64,000 bases of DNA from Deltaproteobacteria bacterium (GTDB lineage: Bacteria; UBA10199; GCA-002796325; JACPFF01), in contig JACPFF010000019.1 of NCBI GenBank assembly GCA_016183065.1, forward strand, positions 1-64,000, written 5' to 3'. A program made the position numbers and the translations under genes. Positions 4,039-55,247 of this stretch are shown one piece after another (position 1 is the first letter of the stretch; each line of letters begins with the position of its first letter). The notes below the pieces were generated by a model, which was given only the letters and a program-made list of their open reading frames with translations, had not been told where the DNA came from and did not search any database.

Positions 4039-4060
4039 ATGTTGCCGGGCGACTATTGGA

Positions 4061-4219
4061 GGGGCTCACGTACCCTGCGGCTCCGCCTCCGGGTACTCCC
4101 TCGTCCACCCAGCTGCGCTGGGTCCCCGGACTCGGTCGTCGCCACTGACCCCCTCCAGCGGCAAAGCCGCTGGAGCCTCCCCCTCACGCGCGCGGTGCGC
4201 GCTGGGGAACTGCGCACCC
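4061..4219 (+). repeat. Palindromic repeat, tandem copy 1 (159 bp)
   Basis: This is the first of two tandem units. It begins with GGGGCTCACG and the next unit starts exactly 159 bp later. The left half holds GGGTAC and CCCAGCTGCGCTGGG palindromes. The right half holds the hairpin CTCCAGCGGC-aaa-GCCGCTGGAG. That hairpin is shared with the elements inside murF and the lytic transglycosylase gene. It fills most of the tmk-holB gap. Read on the plus strand in the frame used in those two genes, it is open and encodes peptides containing GAHV and PSSGKAAGASPS. Confidence 0.9.
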
Positions 4220-4390
4220 GGGGCTCACGTACCCTGCAGCGAAGCCTCCGGGTACTTCCTCGTCCACCCCGCTGTGCTCGGTCCCCGGGCTCGGTCGTCG
4301 CCACTGACCCCCTCCAGCGGCAAAGCCGCTGGAGCCTCCCCCTCACGCGCGCGGTGCGCGCTGGGGAACTGCGCACCCGGGGCTCACGTA
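4220..4390 (+). repeat. Palindromic repeat, tandem copy 2 plus terminal GGGGCTCACG
   Basis: The second 159-bp unit runs from 4220 to 4378 and is nearly identical to the first; differences cluster in the first 80 bp. A third GGGGCTCACGTA start follows at 4379-4390 and then unique sequence. The complement of this terminus supplies the TGA stop of tmk (4384-4386). The structure suggests unequal recombination or stepwise insertion at the GGGGCTCACG end. Confidence 0.88.
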
Positions 4391-37958: not shown

Positions 37959-39470
37959 ATGAAGACGACAGGTGATACCACGAGACCGCCGCGACCACTC
38001 TCGAGACTTCTCGCAGGGTTGGCACCACGGCAGGTCATTGGCGATACGGAAGCGATGATTACGTCGCTCGCGTATCACACGGAAGCGGTCCGTCCGCAGG
38101 GACTGTTTGCGGCCCTGCGTGGTGCCAAGGTCGATGGCCATCACTACCTTGCCGCCGCGATTGCCAGGGGGGCACGGGCGGTCCTTGTGGAGGAGCGGGT
38201 CGCCGTCCCTGCCGGGATTACGCAGGTGGTCGTGGAGAACGCGCGCGTGGCCCTGGGCCATTGCGCTGCGCAATGGTTCGATGACCCCACCGCGGCCATG
38301 ACCGTGGTGGGGATTACCGGGACCAATGGCAAGACGACGATGACCTATCTGCTCGAATCGATCTGGCGGGCCGCGGGCTTCTTGCCCGCCGTCATCGGCA
38401 CAATCCACTATCGGTACGGCACCACGTGCCATGCTGCGCCGGCGACCACACCGGAATCATACGACATGCAGAAGCTCTGCGCCGACATGCGCGCCGCCGG
38501 GGTCACGCACGTGGCCATGGAGGTCTCGTCCCATGGCTTGTCGCAGCACCGGGTGGATGCCTGTCATTTCACCGGGGCGGTATGGACCAATCTGTCACAG
38601 GATCATCTCGATTACCACGGAGATATGCAGGCCTACGGGGCCGCCAAAGAGCGCCTCTTCGCGCTCGTCGGACGTGAGGGGAAGGGGTTCGCGGTCCTGA
38701 ATCGTGACGATGCAGCGGCCCAACAGATGGCGGGTCGTTGCACCGCGCCGCTCTCCTGGTATGGACTCACCGCGGGCGATTATCGGCCGAGCACATGGCG
38801 TTCGACCCTCTCCGGGATTCGCGCGACGATCGAAACGCCGCGTGGGCCCCTGACTGTGACGTCGCCACTGGTGGGTGCATTCAACCTGTCGAATATTCTG
38901 GCCGCAGTGGCGGTGGCTGAGGCTCTGCAGATTGCACCAGCCGCGATCGAAACGGGGGTGGCCGGGATGACACAGGTTCCAGGACGATTGGAACGGATAC
39001 ACACGGAGAACGGTGTGACGATTTTTGTCGATTATGCCCACACGCCGGCGGCGTTGCAAAGCGTGTTGCAGACACTGCGACCTCTGACAACGGGCCGGCT
39101 CATCACGGTATTTGGGTGTGGCGGTGATCGCGATGCGACCAAGCGGCCCATCATGGGACAGGTCGCGGCAACGGGGAGTGACGTGGTTGTGGTCACATCG
39201 GATAACCCCCGCAGTGAAGATCCCCAGGCCATCATCGCGCAGATTGTCGCGGGAATGGGCGAACATTGCCGCGACGCTGCGGTGGTCGAACCGGACCGCC
39301 GGACGGCCATTGCCCAGGCGCTGCGTCAGGCCACCGCAGGCGATGTCGTGCTGGTCGCCGGCAAGGGCCATGAAGACTATCAAATTATCGGCACTGAGCG
39401 GAGGCACTTCGATGACCGGGAGGTGATCCGGGAGTGCCTTGAGGATGCGCACCATGCAATGCACGGTTGA
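37959..39470 (+). CDS. murE: UDP-MurNAc-tripeptide (meso-DAP) ligase
   Basis: A 503-residue Mur ligase adding meso-diaminopimelate to UDP-MurNAc-dipeptide. The ATP loop is GITGTNGKTTMTYLLE. The DNPR motif (SDNPRSEDP) marks DAP rather than lysine specificity. The ATG at 37959 follows GAAAGGG; a TTG further upstream is less likely. Its 3-prime end overlaps murF by 17 bp. Confidence 0.96.
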   Translation: MKTTGDTTRPPRPLSRLLAGLAPRQVIGDTEAMITSLAYHTEAVRPQGLFAALRGAKVDGHHYLAAAIARGARAVLVEERVAVPAGITQVVVENARVALGHCAAQWFDDPTAAMTVVGITGTNGKTTMTYLLESIWRAAGFLPAVIGTIHYRYGTTCHAAPATTPESYDMQKLCADMRAAGVTHVAMEVSSHGLSQHRVDACHFTGAVWTNLSQDHLDYHGDMQAYGAAKERLFALVGREGKGFAVLNRDDAAAQQMAGRCTAPLSWYGLTAGDYRPSTWRSTLSGIRATIETPRGPLTVTSPLVGAFNLSNILAAVAVAEALQIAPAAIETGVAGMTQVPGRLERIHTENGVTIFVDYAHTPAALQSVLQTLRPLTTGRLITVFGCGGDRDATKRPIMGQVAATGSDVVVVTSDNPRSEDPQAIIAQIVAGMGEHCRDAAVVEPDRRTAIAQALRQATAGDVVLVAGKGHEDYQIIGTERRHFDDREVIRECLEDAHHAMHG

Positions 39471-41046
39471 CGAAATCCGGCGTGTGACACAGGGAGCGGT
39501 CGTGCACGAGGGGGCCGACGCGTCGGTCACGGCCGTGCAGATTGATTCACGCCACTTTCGCGACGGGAGTTGGTTCATCGCCATTCCAGGGCTCCACTTT
39601 GATGGGCACGATTTTGTCGCTTCCGTGTTGGCACAGGGGGCCCGCGGCGTGATTCTGGCGCGCAATCGTATGACCCCTGCCATTGCCCAGGCGGTCGCCC
39701 AGGCCGCTGCGCGACCGTGGATCTTGCAGGTGGAGGATACGGTCGTTGCCCTGGGGGCCATTGCCGCGGCCTGGCGGCAACACTGCAGGGCGACGACCTG
39801 CGTGGGCATTACGGGAAGCAATGGCAAGTCGACGACCAAAGAGATGATCGCCACCATTGCAGGGGCTCACGTCGCCCCCTCCAGCGGCAAAGCCGCTGGA
39901 GCCTCCCCCTCAGCGCCGCGGTGCGGCTGGGTCGTGGGGCCCCGGACGTCAGTCCGGGGGGTGTCGTGCTCCGGCGAAGCCTCCTCCCAGGATGCCACGG
40001 GCGTGAGCCCGTGGGGCCCCACCATTGCAGGAGTGGGCGGGCCGGTCCTGAAGACCGAGGGCAACTTCAACAATCTGATCGGACTGCCGCTGACACTGCT
40101 CAGACTCGAGACTCCACATGTCGTAGCTGTGGTGGAAATGGGGATGAGCGCTGCCGGCGAAATTGCGCGGCTGACGACCGTGCTCGATCCCGATGTGGGG
40201 CTCATCACGAACATTTCCGCCGCGCATTTGGAGACGCTCTTGTCGATCGAGAATGTGGCGGGGGCCAAGGGGGAATTGTTTGCCACCATGCGCCCCGATC
40301 GGACGATTGTCGTGAATGCGGAAGATCCGTGGGTCTGTCAGGTGGCCGAGCACTATCGTGGTCGGAAGATCACCTTCGGGATGAAAAACGGGTGCGATGT
40401 GCAATTTGGACGGGTCTCATCAACGGGGCTTTCAACGTCGGTCCTGTCGTTCTACGTGGCGGGGAAGGAATATCATGCGACCATTCCGGTGCCGGGAACA
40501 CACAATGTCATGAACGCCCTGGCCGCCACGGCGGTGGCGCTGGCCTGCCGGATTCCCATGGAGACCGTGGTGGAGCGACTGCCGCATTTTACCCCCATGC
40601 GGATGCGGATGGAACGCGTCCAGCTCGAGAACGGTGTCCAGGTGATCAACGACTCGTACAATGCCAATCCGGAATCGATGGCGGCCGCATTCCGCACGGT
40701 GAGTGCTGCGCGACGGGCCGGACGATTTTTTGCCGTGCTTGGCGATATGCTTGAGCTGGGTCCGCAGGCAGGCGCCTGTCATCGCGCGCTCGGGGCGCAG
40801 GCGCATGCCTCTGGCGTGGATCGGCTCTTCGTCATCGGGTTGCATGCGCGCGATGTGGCCGAAGGGGCGCGCCAGGCCGGCATGGCGGCGGATGCGGTGC
40901 TCGCCACGGAAGCGGACAAGACAATGTTGCAGGACGCTGTGCGGAGTGCGGTGACCCGTGGCGACGTCGTGCTCGTGAAGGGATCGCGCGGCATGGAAAT
41001 GGAACGCGTCGTGGAATTTCTCAAACGTGAAATAGGAGTCTGTTAA
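39454..41046 (+). CDS. murF: UDP-MurNAc-tripeptide:D-Ala-D-Ala ligase with in-frame repeat insertion
   Basis: MurF adds D-Ala-D-Ala to UDP-MurNAc-tripeptide. The 530-residue protein has the ATP loop GITGSNGKSTTKEMIATIA, then 53 repeat-encoded residues (137-189), then VLKTEGNFNNLIG, which normally follows the loop after a few residues. Without the insertion and duplicated TIA the protein is 474 residues, normal for the family. The rest (NDSYNANPESM, LGDMLELG) is intact and no frame or stop defect is visible, so the gene is probably functional with an extra surface loop. GAGG at 39441-39444 supports the ATG at 39454. Confidence 0.95.
   Translation: MQCTVDEIRRVTQGAVVHEGADASVTAVQIDSRHFRDGSWFIAIPGLHFDGHDFVASVLAQGARGVILARNRMTPAIAQAVAQAAARPWILQVEDTVVALGAIAAAWRQHCRATTCVGITGSNGKSTTKEMIATIAGAHVAPSSGKAAGASPSAPRCGWVVGPRTSVRGVSCSGEASSQDATGVSPWGPTIAGVGGPVLKTEGNFNNLIGLPLTLLRLETPHVVAVVEMGMSAAGEIARLTTVLDPDVGLITNISAAHLETLLSIENVAGAKGELFATMRPDRTIVVNAEDPWVCQVAEHYRGRKITFGMKNGCDVQFGRVSSTGLSTSVLSFYVAGKEYHATIPVPGTHNVMNALAATAVALACRIPMETVVERLPHFTPMRMRMERVQLENGVQVINDSYNANPESMAAAFRTVSAARRAGRFFAVLGDMLELGPQAGACHRALGAQAHASGVDRLFVIGLHARDVAEGARQAGMAADAVLATEADKTMLQDAVRSAVTRGDVVLVKGSRGMEMERVVEFLKREIGVC
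39862..40020 (+). repeat. 159-bp palindromic element inserted in murF
   Basis: The element runs from GGGGCTCACG to GTGGGGCCCC. Its ends are imperfect inverted repeats. The hairpin CTCCAGCGGC-aaa-GCCGCTGGAG and the palindrome CCCCGGACgtcaGTCCGGGG lie inside. It is flanked by a perfect 9-bp direct repeat, ACCATTGCA at 39853-39861 and 40021-40029. It starts on a codon boundary and has no stop in the murF frame. It is about 95 percent identical (8 differences) to the copy in the lytic transglycosylase gene. Confidence 0.93.
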
Positions 41047-42150
41047 ATGCTCTATCATTGGCTCTATCCATTGCATGAACATCTCGTCGGGTTCACGATC
41101 TTTCAGTTCATCACCTTTCGGACGTTCATGGCGATTTTTACCGCGCTCGGCATTTATCTCTTCTGCGGGGCGCCGATGATTCGCTGGCTCGCCCGCCGGC
41201 AATTCTGGCAGACCGTGCGGGATGATGGCCCGATGACCCATTTGAGCAAGGAGGGGACGCCGACCATGGGAGGGCTGCTCCTCTGGCTGGCGGTCTCGAT
41301 CTCGCTCCTGCTGTGGAGTCGCTGGGACAATTTTTACGTCCTTTTCACCGTCGCGATCGGGATTGCCTTTGGCCTCATCGGATTTTTTGATGACTATCGA
41401 AAACTGATTCTCCGGGATCCCAAGGGATTGCGGGCGCGATATAAGTTTCCGTTGCAACTGATCGTCGCCCTCCTCGCCATGCTTGTCCTGTTCGATGTCT
41501 ATCATTTCGATCGTCATCTCTCGGTGCCGTTTTTCAAGGCCGCCATGCCCGATCTGGGATGGTGGTACGTCCTGTTCGGGGCGTTGGTCATTGTGGGGAC
41601 CTCGAATGCCATGAATCTCACCGACGGGCTCGATGGATTGGTCTCCGGTCCCGGGATTATGGCCTTCCTGAGTTATGCCGTCTTTGCCTATGTCGTCGGC
41701 CATGCAACGATTGCGGAATATCTCCAGATCCCGTTTTCGCCCGGTGTTCCCGCACCGACCGGCATTCCCGGCGTGGGCGAATTGACAGTCCTGTGCGGCG
41801 CCATTGTGGGCGGGTTGATCGGATTTCTCTGGTTCAACGCACATCCTGCCATGATTTTCCTCGGCGATGTCGGCTCGCTTCCGCTCGGTGCACTCTTGGG
41901 CACCATTGCCGTTGTAGTGAAACAGGAGTTGTTGCTCCTGATCGTCGGGGGCATCTTTGTCCTCGAAACTATCTCGGTCATTGTGCAGGTCGCGTCGTTT
42001 AAACTCACCGGAAAACGGGTCTTCCGGATGGCGCCGTTGCATCATCACTTTGAACTCAAGGGGTGGCCGGAGTCACGGGTGATCGTCCGCTTTTGGATCA
42101 TTGCCCTGATACTGGCATTGATCGGTCTGACCACACTGAAGATACGCTAA
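41047..42150 (+). CDS. mraY: Phospho-MurNAc-pentapeptide transferase
   Basis: A 367-residue polytopic membrane enzyme making lipid I from UDP-MurNAc-pentapeptide and undecaprenyl phosphate. The motifs GIAFGLIGFFDDYRK (Asp-Asp), NAMNLTDGLDGL and the MAPLHHHFELKGW triple-histidine loop are intact. The start directly follows the murF stop, and the stop overlaps murD by one base (TAATG). Confidence 0.97.
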   Translation: MLYHWLYPLHEHLVGFTIFQFITFRTFMAIFTALGIYLFCGAPMIRWLARRQFWQTVRDDGPMTHLSKEGTPTMGGLLLWLAVSISLLLWSRWDNFYVLFTVAIGIAFGLIGFFDDYRKLILRDPKGLRARYKFPLQLIVALLAMLVLFDVYHFDRHLSVPFFKAAMPDLGWWYVLFGALVIVGTSNAMNLTDGLDGLVSGPGIMAFLSYAVFAYVVGHATIAEYLQIPFSPGVPAPTGIPGVGELTVLCGAIVGGLIGFLWFNAHPAMIFLGDVGSLPLGALLGTIAVVVKQELLLLIVGGIFVLETISVIVQVASFKLTGKRVFRMAPLHHHFELKGWPESRVIVRFWIIALILALIGLTTLKIR

Positions 42151-49984: not shown

Positions 49985-50061
49985 CCCGACAGCCAAGCTG
50001 CGCAGCGGCGCTGAGGGGAGACTCCACCGGCTTTGCCGGTGGAGGGGGCGACGCAAGCCCC
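49985..50061 (-). repeat. Fragment of the palindromic element (left half) before ftsA
   Basis: On the minus strand this begins GGGGCTTGCGTCGCCCCCTC, continues with hairpin CTCCACCGGC-aaa-GCCGGTGGAG and CTCAGCGCCGC, and stops near GTCGGGGTCA. It matches the left half of the murF element. The hairpin carries a paired change (CAGCGG to CACCGG on both arms), which keeps the stem intact. It ends 28 bp before the ftsA ATG. Confidence 0.82.
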
Positions 50062-50089
50062 TTATATCGACGATGATGAAGGGGGATCT

Positions 50090-52859: not shown

Positions 52860-55247
52860 ATGAGACGACTTACCGTTCTCTTCACCGGGGTGCTTATCAT
52901 GGCCTCAGGATGTGCGACCACGCAACGCGGGCAATGGTCACGCAGTCGCACATGGGAGAAGAAGGGGGGGGTGGTGCGTCTCTATGACAATGGGTCGCAT
53001 CCGCGCATTGGACGCCTCCCACGCACGGATGTGCCCTTGGCCGTCAATGACCGCGTGGTGGCCTGGATCGACTATTTCACGCGCTACGGCGAGAACGCCC
53101 GTTTTGGGCGGCATCTCGAACGCTCAGGACGTTATCTCGAAATGATGCGGGCCGCATTGCGTCGGCATGGCCTGCCGCAAGACTTGGTCTATATTGCGCT
53201 CATCGAGAGTGGGTTCCAGAATACGGCGCGGTCCCATGCCGCCGCGGTGGGGACATGGCAGTTTATCCAAAGTACGGCCCGTGGCTATGGCCTCGATATC
53301 AATTCATACATTGACGAACGCCGCGACCCGGAAAAAGCCGTGGATGCCGCCGCCCGCTATCTCAAAACGCTCTACGAGGAATTCGGCGACTGGTATCTGG
53401 CCATGGCCGGCTACAATGCCGGTGAGGGTCGCGTTCGCCGGGCGATTGCCCAATTTGGGACCAAGGATTTTTGGAGCCTCGCCTCGTACGGCAACCGGGC
53501 CTTTCGTGCCGAGACGCGCGAGTATGTCCCGAAATATATTGCCGCCACCATTATTGCCAAAGATCCGAAGCGTTTTGGGTTTGCCCATCTGAATTATCAC
53601 GAGCCCTGGGACTATGATCGGGCAAAGATTCAGGGGCAGACCGATCTGGCGGCTGTTGCCGACGCGGCCAAGGTCTCGCTCTCGGAAATCGAGGAGCTGA
53701 ATCCCGAGGTCCATTCCGGCGTGACACCGCCGGGAAAATATGAAGTGCGATTGCCGGTCGGCCGCGCCAGGACGTTCGGACGGCGGTTTGCCACCGTCGC
53801 GCGCAAATATCCGGTCGAATCCCGACAGATGCTTTCCTACCGTGTGCGCCGCGGGGATACCCTCCAGCGCATTGCGCGCCGCTATGGGCTCTCGCCCCGT
53901 CAACTGCTGGCCGCCAATCGCCTCCGATCGGCGCGATATCTGCGCGCGGGACAGGTGCTGGCTATTCCCGAGACGGCACAGGCCCAGTCCAAGGCGCGCG
54001 TGCTCGAGGTAGCCTCGGCCACTGGCGAGAAGGAGCGGATCGGCACAGAGAGTCTGCCGGTCACCGCTATTGTAGGGGCTCACGTCGCCCCCTCCAGCGG
54101 CAAAGCCGCTGGAGCCTCCCCCTCAACGCCGCAGTGCGGCTGGGTCGTGGGGCCCCGGACGTCAGTCCGCGGGGTGTCGTGCTCCGACGAAGCCTCTTCC
54201 CAGGGTGCCACAGGCATGAGCCCGTGGGGCCCCACCCTCGTCGTTCCAGCGCCAGAACCAGAACAGGTCGCGGTCGTGCCGCAACCGGTCGCACCAGCAC
54301 GCGTCGTGGCCAATGCAGCGCCAACCGCCGCCGCGCAGCGCAAGTTCCATCGCGTGCGGCGTGGCGACACCTTGGGCCAGATTGCCAAACGCTATCAGGT
54401 CCGTGTCACCGATCTGCGCAGATGGAATGCCGTGCAGGGCTCGAAAATTCGCGTGGGCCAGCGGCTCTATGTCGAAAAGGGGATATCGCCTCGTCCCGCG
54501 GCGGCGTTGGTTTCAACAGCGGTCGCAGCGGTACCCATCGTGCCGGCGCGGAAGCCTGGAGTGGCGGGCACCTATCGCGTACGCCGCGGCGATTCCCTCT
54601 ATGTCATTGCGCGGCGTTATGGCATGACGGTGAGAGAGCTCAAACAACGCAACGGCCTGACCACCAACCAACTCCGTGCGGGGGAGCGGCTTATTGTCTC
54701 CGGCCCCGTCGGTGTTGCGGCACAGGGCATGCCCACCACGACCCAGAACGGACCTACGGCCCTGGCAGAGCGCGCACCCCAGGCATCCCCAGCATATGCA
54801 ACCTATGTGATCAAATCCGGCGACACGCTGGGGACAATTGCCAGGGAGTACGGGATGACTGTGCCTGAGCTACGCCGGATCAATCAACTCGGCCCACGCA
54901 CCATGATCCGCGCTGGAAAGTCACTCAAGGTGGTCGATGCCACCCCGACACCCGAGACCTTGCCCAAGGGAGAACCGGTGGCTTCGATACCGACTGCCAC
55001 CACGCAGCCCGTGGCACTCAACGTGGAACCGTCGGCGTCGCAAAAACTGTGGTCAGATCGGCTTTCATTGCAGGCCCAAGCCGAGAGTGTCGGACGCCAG
55101 GTCATCTATCAGGTCAAGCCCGGCGATACGCTCTGGGACATTTCCAAGACCTACAATGTCAGCCCGGCGCAGATTCAGGATTGGAATAACATGGATGCGC
55201 CGTCGATCAAACCCGGCCAGAAATTGACCATTCGCATTTCGTCGTAA
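52860..55247 (+). CDS. mltD: MltD-like lytic transglycosylase lipoprotein with five LysM domains and an in-frame repeat
   Basis: A 795-residue lipoprotein (lipobox LIMASGC, Cys18). The SLT domain (about residues 85-235) carries the catalytic Glu in LIESGFQNTARSHAAAVGTW and the AGYNAGEGRV motif. Five LysM modules bind peptidoglycan: about residues 326-370, 498-541, 576-619, 643-690 and 748-793. The segment at residues 406-458 is encoded by the 159-bp palindromic element, between the first and second LysM. It falls in a low-complexity Ala/Pro linker, so function is probably kept. It cuts glycan strands in the outer periplasm. Confidence 0.93.
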   Translation: MRRLTVLFTGVLIMASGCATTQRGQWSRSRTWEKKGGVVRLYDNGSHPRIGRLPRTDVPLAVNDRVVAWIDYFTRYGENARFGRHLERSGRYLEMMRAALRRHGLPQDLVYIALIESGFQNTARSHAAAVGTWQFIQSTARGYGLDINSYIDERRDPEKAVDAAARYLKTLYEEFGDWYLAMAGYNAGEGRVRRAIAQFGTKDFWSLASYGNRAFRAETREYVPKYIAATIIAKDPKRFGFAHLNYHEPWDYDRAKIQGQTDLAAVADAAKVSLSEIEELNPEVHSGVTPPGKYEVRLPVGRARTFGRRFATVARKYPVESRQMLSYRVRRGDTLQRIARRYGLSPRQLLAANRLRSARYLRAGQVLAIPETAQAQSKARVLEVASATGEKERIGTESLPVTAIVGAHVAPSSGKAAGASPSTPQCGWVVGPRTSVRGVSCSDEASSQGATGMSPWGPTLVVPAPEPEQVAVVPQPVAPARVVANAAPTAAAQRKFHRVRRGDTLGQIAKRYQVRVTDLRRWNAVQGSKIRVGQRLYVEKGISPRPAAALVSTAVAAVPIVPARKPGVAGTYRVRRGDSLYVIARRYGMTVRELKQRNGLTTNQLRAGERLIVSGPVGVAAQGMPTTTQNGPTALAERAPQASPAYATYVIKSGDTLGTIAREYGMTVPELRRINQLGPRTMIRAGKSLKVVDATPTPETLPKGEPVASIPTATTQPVALNVEPSASQKLWSDRLSLQAQAESVGRQVIYQVKPGDTLWDISKTYNVSPAQIQDWNNMDAPSIKPGQKLTIRISS
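54075..54233 (+). repeat. 159-bp palindromic element inserted in the lytic transglycosylase gene
   Basis: It has the same length and ends as the murF element (GGGGCTCACG to GTGGGGCCCC), with 8 base differences. It starts on a codon boundary and is read in the same frame, giving GAHVAPSSGKAAGASPS and onward. Three of the eight changes are silent. No flanking direct duplication is visible, but the left flank CTATTGTA resembles the murF flank CCATTGCA. Confidence 0.93.

Follow-up and report, generated by a model that had tools for sequence, protein, structure and literature searches.

A palindromic repeat element inserted in frame in murF and other genes of a bacterial lineage unrelated to Rickettsia

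The 64-kb stretch of DNA analysed here (the window) includes a run of cell-wall genes in which murF, encoding UDP-MurNAc-tripeptide--D-alanyl-D-alanine ligase, occupies positions 39454..41046 of the forward strand. murE ends at 39470, and ORFs reading as mraY (at 41047) and murD follow murF; murE, mraY and murD are named from their translations. The murF start at 39454 is a predicted one, picked by likeness to MurF N-termini, and the stop ends at 41046. The ORF encodes a complete MurF in which the three Mur ligase domains (Mur_ligase, Mur_ligase_M and Mur_ligase_C) are all present, and its product matches the PDB MurF entries 1gg4 and 4cvk. The assembly, which comprises 30 contigs and is 88.8% complete, has no other full-length MurF match, and no MurF homologues were found in viral contigs.

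This gene carries an insert of 168 nt, or 56 codons, beyond the expected MurF. An earlier note, made from the sequence alone, had described a palindromic element lying in frame within murF, whose removal would join IATIA to normal MurF sequence. The sequence is as described, and deleting the 168 nt gives back the expected MurF length and sequence (...KEMIATIAG|VGGPVLKTEGNFNN...). We aligned MurF from related genomes, from the same family outwards, as that note had proposed. The exact 56-residue block was missing from 27 of 27 relatives, whose proteins run past the P-loop helix straight into a (G)xxLxTEGNFNN stretch. The block is thus an insertion, and no relative shares it at the same site. 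Its position after the ATP-binding P-loop was also borne out: by alignment to E. coli MurF (1GG4), the insert falls between residues 122 and 126, in the short stretch behind the P-loop helix. Ser, Gly, Ala and Pro make up 61% of the insert peptide, and its stretch GVSCSGEASSQDATGVSPWGPTIAGVGGPVLK has Arg on one side and Lys on the other.

The inserted DNA is GC-rich (75% GC) with imperfect inverted ends, as first reported, its terminal arms (39860-39871/40002-40013) pairing at 92%. In one placement, based on the 27 relatives lacking the 56 residues, the insert spans 39855..40022 (+) and consists of 7 nt of left end followed by a 161-nt body (GGGGCTCACG...GGGGCCCCAC; 39862..40022, +), which copy alignment showed to be common to full-length copies. 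This placement is frame-equivalent to a 159-bp body plus a 9-bp repeat. The left module of about 75 nt, which we call unit A (39856..39930, +), reads AGGGGCTCRCGTCGCCCCCTCC-hairpin-GGAGCCTCCCCCTC-hairpin and is found across the class. Hairpin 2 (CTCCAGCGGC-AAA-GCCGCTGGAG; 39879..39901, +) has a perfect stem of 10 bp, with arms at 39879-39888/39892-39901. In the right module (39934..40022, +), an outer stem GTGGGGCCCC/GGGGCCCCAC encloses inner hairpins, and other copies show length variants of this module. The outer pair GTGGGGCCCC of the murF copy lies at 39934-39943/40013-40022, and further hairpins lie at 39940-39947/39952-39959 and 39995-40002/40007-40014.

Compared with dinucleotide shuffles, the murF insert folded more strongly as RNA (z = -2.7) and as DNA (z = -4.3, with 0 of 200 dinucleotide shuffles as good). 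The stem of hairpin 2 covaries strongly across copies. Over 56 external stems, 94% of its pairs were Watson-Crick and 1% were G-T; in a shuffled-arm control, the Watson-Crick share averaged 67% and reached 72% at most. Since the stems were placed by best pairing and come from related rows, the 94% should not be read as a probability. That so few pairs are G-T would fit a constraint on a DNA hairpin better than one on an RNA hairpin.

The block belongs to a repeat family, and the murF element is therefore not a chance sequence. It matches 69 places in this genome (E <= 10), and 13 further near-full copies are 93-97% identical to it over 162-180 nt. The left module's 21-nt core occurs at 86 sites in the 1.97-Mb genome (<=3 mismatches), compared with 0 for a reversed control pattern, and the genome stretches examined hold at least 121 distinct repeat intervals. 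In the copy alignment the full type has the 161-nt body, shorter and longer types differ from it in the right module, and composite copies contain a second hairpin module. Seven repeat intervals lie inside the window. A second full copy there (54067..54236, +) stands in frame in an 814-aa mltD-like gene with SLT and LysM domains. A left module on its own (49993..50066, -) has no open frame spanning it, and two adjacent composite copies, made of the left module and the second hairpin module, lie in an ORF of uncertain status (4053..4370, +). Most copies in the genome are outside confirmed genes.

Among the genes hit, murF is no special case but one of about a dozen, a count that leaves out the many long repeat-spanning ORFs lacking a Pfam match. 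In-frame copies with domain support were found in slt (lytic transglycosylase), mltD, cinA and an alpha/beta-hydrolase gene, and further such copies in a phytoene/squalene synthase gene and a phosphoribosyltransferase gene. Several in-frame repeat intervals fall within a fatty-acid-synthase-like ORF with an open frame of 3309 aa (L199, G000:C27:74000-78700). Antisense in-frame copies occur in a ribonucleotide reductase gene, in our reading probably of class II, and in the intein of the same reductase (L029, L224, G000:C3); this intein has a LAGLIDADG domain. In other genomes, copies lie within a molybdopterin-oxidoreductase gene and a histidine kinase gene.

Besides murF, the alignments to relatives covered acpS, rlmN and carA. 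The acpS copy gives an in-frame insert of about 80 residues that is absent in the nearest relatives. In rlmN, an antisense copy adds about 29 residues to the region joining the N-terminal domain to the radical-SAM domain, and is likewise absent in relatives. The RlmN of one relative (G006; L307) carries a different insertion of its own in this variable stretch, so the site may be a permissive one. The carA copy lies in the linker that joins the CPSase domain to the GATase domain; the linker is of varying length among relatives, and the exact empty site is undefined.

Genic copies use three of the six frames, antisense included. These three frames are open in most copies, whether genic or not; the repeat is therefore translatable by its composition, and not through selection for one peptide. 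Genic bodies with defined ends measure 161, 104 and 92 nt, all of them 2 mod 3, and become whole codons with 7 further nt, a pattern that rests on small numbers. Body lengths of other copies also include other remainders mod 3.

The perfect direct repeat bounding the murF copy, given as 9 bp in the earlier note, is real, but it measures 13 bp (CCACCATTGCAGG). Its left copy (39851..39863, +) also resembles the family left end CCACTATTGGAGG, its right copy (40019..40031, +) overlaps the right end of the element at CCAC, and the two are spaced by 168. The same note had weighed a target duplication against a repeat belonging to the element. The repeat stands, yet about 10 nt to the left of GGGG in murF (CACCATTGCA) look like the left end seen in other copies (consensus CACTATTGGA), and the 13 bp may be either a target duplication or partly element. 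Across the family, left flanks resemble CACTATTGGA or CTATTACA and are more variable than the element interior. In rlmN, the bases beside GGGG (TTTCGATCTGA) are the conserved host codons for IE, and the left flank there is therefore host sequence. The murF left flank may likewise be host, as ATIA aligns with residues of the relatives. A mirroring of the left end by the right flank was weak (permutation P = 0.003 with murF, 0.014 without murF).

Within the family the 13-bp direct repeat of murF is exceptional. A host flank duplication of at least 12 bp adjoining the element was seen at 1 of the 111 left ends examined in this genome, and the 30-32 copies with defined ends had no general direct repeat at their borders; very short target duplications can be judged only with empty sites. 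Among the copies of this genome, one alone (L213, G000:C29:1231) has a clear flank duplication, 36 bp long, immediately next to the element. In other genomes, flank duplications of about 55 and 58 bp, with mismatches, occur at L102 and L124, one of 29 bp that reads as the 3' end of a tRNA occurs at L130, and element-plus-flank tandem repeats occur at L111 and L131; overall these long duplications span about 20-60 bp. A 12-bp host inverted repeat (AGACGGAGCAAA / TTTGCTCCGTCT) has another copy (L211, G000:C24:139252) inserted between its two arms.

Beyond this genome, 22 of 46 genomes of the class match the element, mostly over the left ~75 nt. The exact 22-nt core was found in at least 96 stretches of GTDB species genomes, and titles among the matches listed are Nitrospirae/Nitrospiria (including Candidatus Troglogloeales), Deltaproteobacteria, Syntrophus, Syntrophorhabdus, Acidobacteria and Bdellovibrionales. 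The exact full-element pattern had no match in genome contigs. The exact core had none in viral contigs and blastn against PLSDB plasmids returned none, therefore no vector for cross-phylum spread was seen. Rfam, searched at gathering scores with 12 loci, gave no family.

Taken as a whole, the block is very probably a selfish, non-autonomous palindromic element that inserted in murF and was kept since it happens to be translatable. Its mobility would be deduced from the distribution of its copies; no polymorphic site was seen. With three open frames of six and an insert of 168 nt, about half of the orientation and phase combinations would therefore bring neither a stop nor a frameshift. Insertions with an open frame in linkers or loops would survive as tethers rich in Ser, Gly, Ala and Pro, and the rest would be purged. 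In MurF, the result would be a 56-residue tether after the P-loop helix of the central domain, presumably retained in a protein that is still active. Spread in trans would rely on machinery probably acting on DNA hairpins, with a preference for left-end targets similar to CTATTGGA/CTATTACA; our best guess is a single-strand, hairpin-based process. We find it rather unlikely that the element is a horizontally spread modular hairpin element with an undescribed mechanism and occasional target duplications of about 9-60 bp, seeding essential proteins with foreign peptides at a Rickettsia-like scale.

A domesticated block, in which the 56-residue insert or an mRNA hairpin regulates MurF or its expression, would agree with an insert adjoining the ATP-binding P-loop of an essential enzyme and with RNA folding better than that of shuffles. 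However, unrelated proteins contain the same sequence in differing frames and orientations, which argues against a function of the peptide; the majority of copies are outside confirmed genes, the murF site is common to no relative, and we consider domestication very improbable. There is similarly little to recommend removal of the segment from the RNA or its bypass in translation, as in a mini-intron or bypass element that leaves the protein normal. Strong hairpins speak for such a process and the border direct repeats of the murF copy could act as junctions, but most copies lack border repeats, the 12 loci gave no Rfam family, and the open frame kept in genic copies would be needless if the segment were removed.

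Another reading is a conventional MITE, derived from an insertion sequence, that ends in terminal inverted repeats and makes a target duplication of 9-13 bp. The perfect 13-bp repeat of the murF copy and the 36-bp flank duplication at the one other copy (L213) speak for it. This reading is unlikely, and for the family largely refuted, because the ends CACTATTGGAGGGG and GGGGCCCCAC are not mutual inverted repeats and direct repeats are no general feature of the copies with defined ends. Least credible is an assembly or binning artefact that wrongly joined a repeat into murF. The assembly is a draft with many near-identical repeats, but the murF insert keeps the frame exactly, as do those in about a dozen genes, and related modules are found in separately assembled genomes, also within genes.

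A selfish palindromic element inserted in frame invites comparison with Rickettsia palindromic elements (RPEs). These are described in PMC10969869 and PMC3733652, after Ogata et al. (2000, 2002), as ~150 bp palindromic repeats present in many copies and in frame in unrelated housekeeping genes. The present element is similar in size and copy number, and its in-frame palindromic insertions in unrelated genes are apparently tolerated. Two features of RPE-like behaviour were found: the same repeat stands in frame in several unrelated genes, and it is absent at the same site in relatives for MurF (27), AcpS and RlmN. Both the alignment with relatives and the copies across the genome thus support the Rickettsia-like insertion that the earlier note had suggested. 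Unlike RPEs, the element belongs to another phylum, is GC-rich and multi-hairpin, has variable, nested content in its outer right stem, and uses three frames, antisense included; the two are set apart here by description. Our best reading is an element that is RPE-like in behaviour, from a family not matched to any named one.

GTAG- and CGTC-REPs are short palindromic repeats of several phyla, mostly outside genes and in some cases intragenic (Di Nocera et al. 2013, PMC3733652). CGTC repeats have no dedicated transposase, and the CGTC survey covered five phyla, Nitrospirae not among them (PMC3733652). Unit A shares a conserved CGTC motif with these repeats, but it is ~75 nt long with three stems, carries CGTC within the first loop and has no CCA tail. 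A terminal tag, an 8-9 bp stem starting with A-T, a 4-5 nt loop and a CCA-like tail, as described for CGTC-REPs (PMC3733652), were not found, and by these features the element does not belong to that class. The aligned copies also lack a conserved GTAG tag and Y1_Tnp is not associated with them, and we rejected a GTAG-REP/RAYT assignment. Bacterial MITEs (NEMIS/Correia, ERIC and QMITE1 of Coxiella) are small non-autonomous repeats for which in-frame fusions are possible (PMC10969869, PMC5896051). The element is alike in being small, non-autonomous and able to form in-frame fusions, but differs in having no terminal inverted repeats, as judged from the ends of 30-32 copies, and, for longer repeats, no general target duplication. 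IS200/IS605-derived elements have hairpins near their ends and a preferred left flank, and lack both terminal inverted repeats and a general duplication. The element resembles them in its end-near hairpins, its absence of terminal inverted repeats and its preferred left flank; no Y1 transposase flanked by the element was found.

According to a 2024 review, MITE-like in-frame protein change is unusually frequent in Rickettsia and only 'conceivable' outside it (PMC10969869), and intragenic REPs have already been catalogued in several species (PMC3733652). Here, about a dozen genes, including murF, acpS and carA, carry the same repeat in a lineage unrelated to Rickettsia. The observation is well supported; the kind of event is known, whereas the lineage, the scale and the cross-phylum core are new. 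The papers found contain no description of a large modular element of such behaviour in this lineage. The copies make a natural data set for asking which positions in proteins tolerate 30-80 foreign residues, and they offer a lead towards the enzyme that mobilises the element.

Y1_Tnp was considered as a mobiliser and rejected. The domain is present in 38 of 46 genomes of the class, with one intact gene in this genome, and its co-occurrence with the element over the 46 genomes showed no association (Fisher P = 1). The second Y1_Tnp match in this genome (L221, G000:C8:65820-66256) is an IS200-type fragment cut by the repeat after an HUH-like motif (TNHFH).
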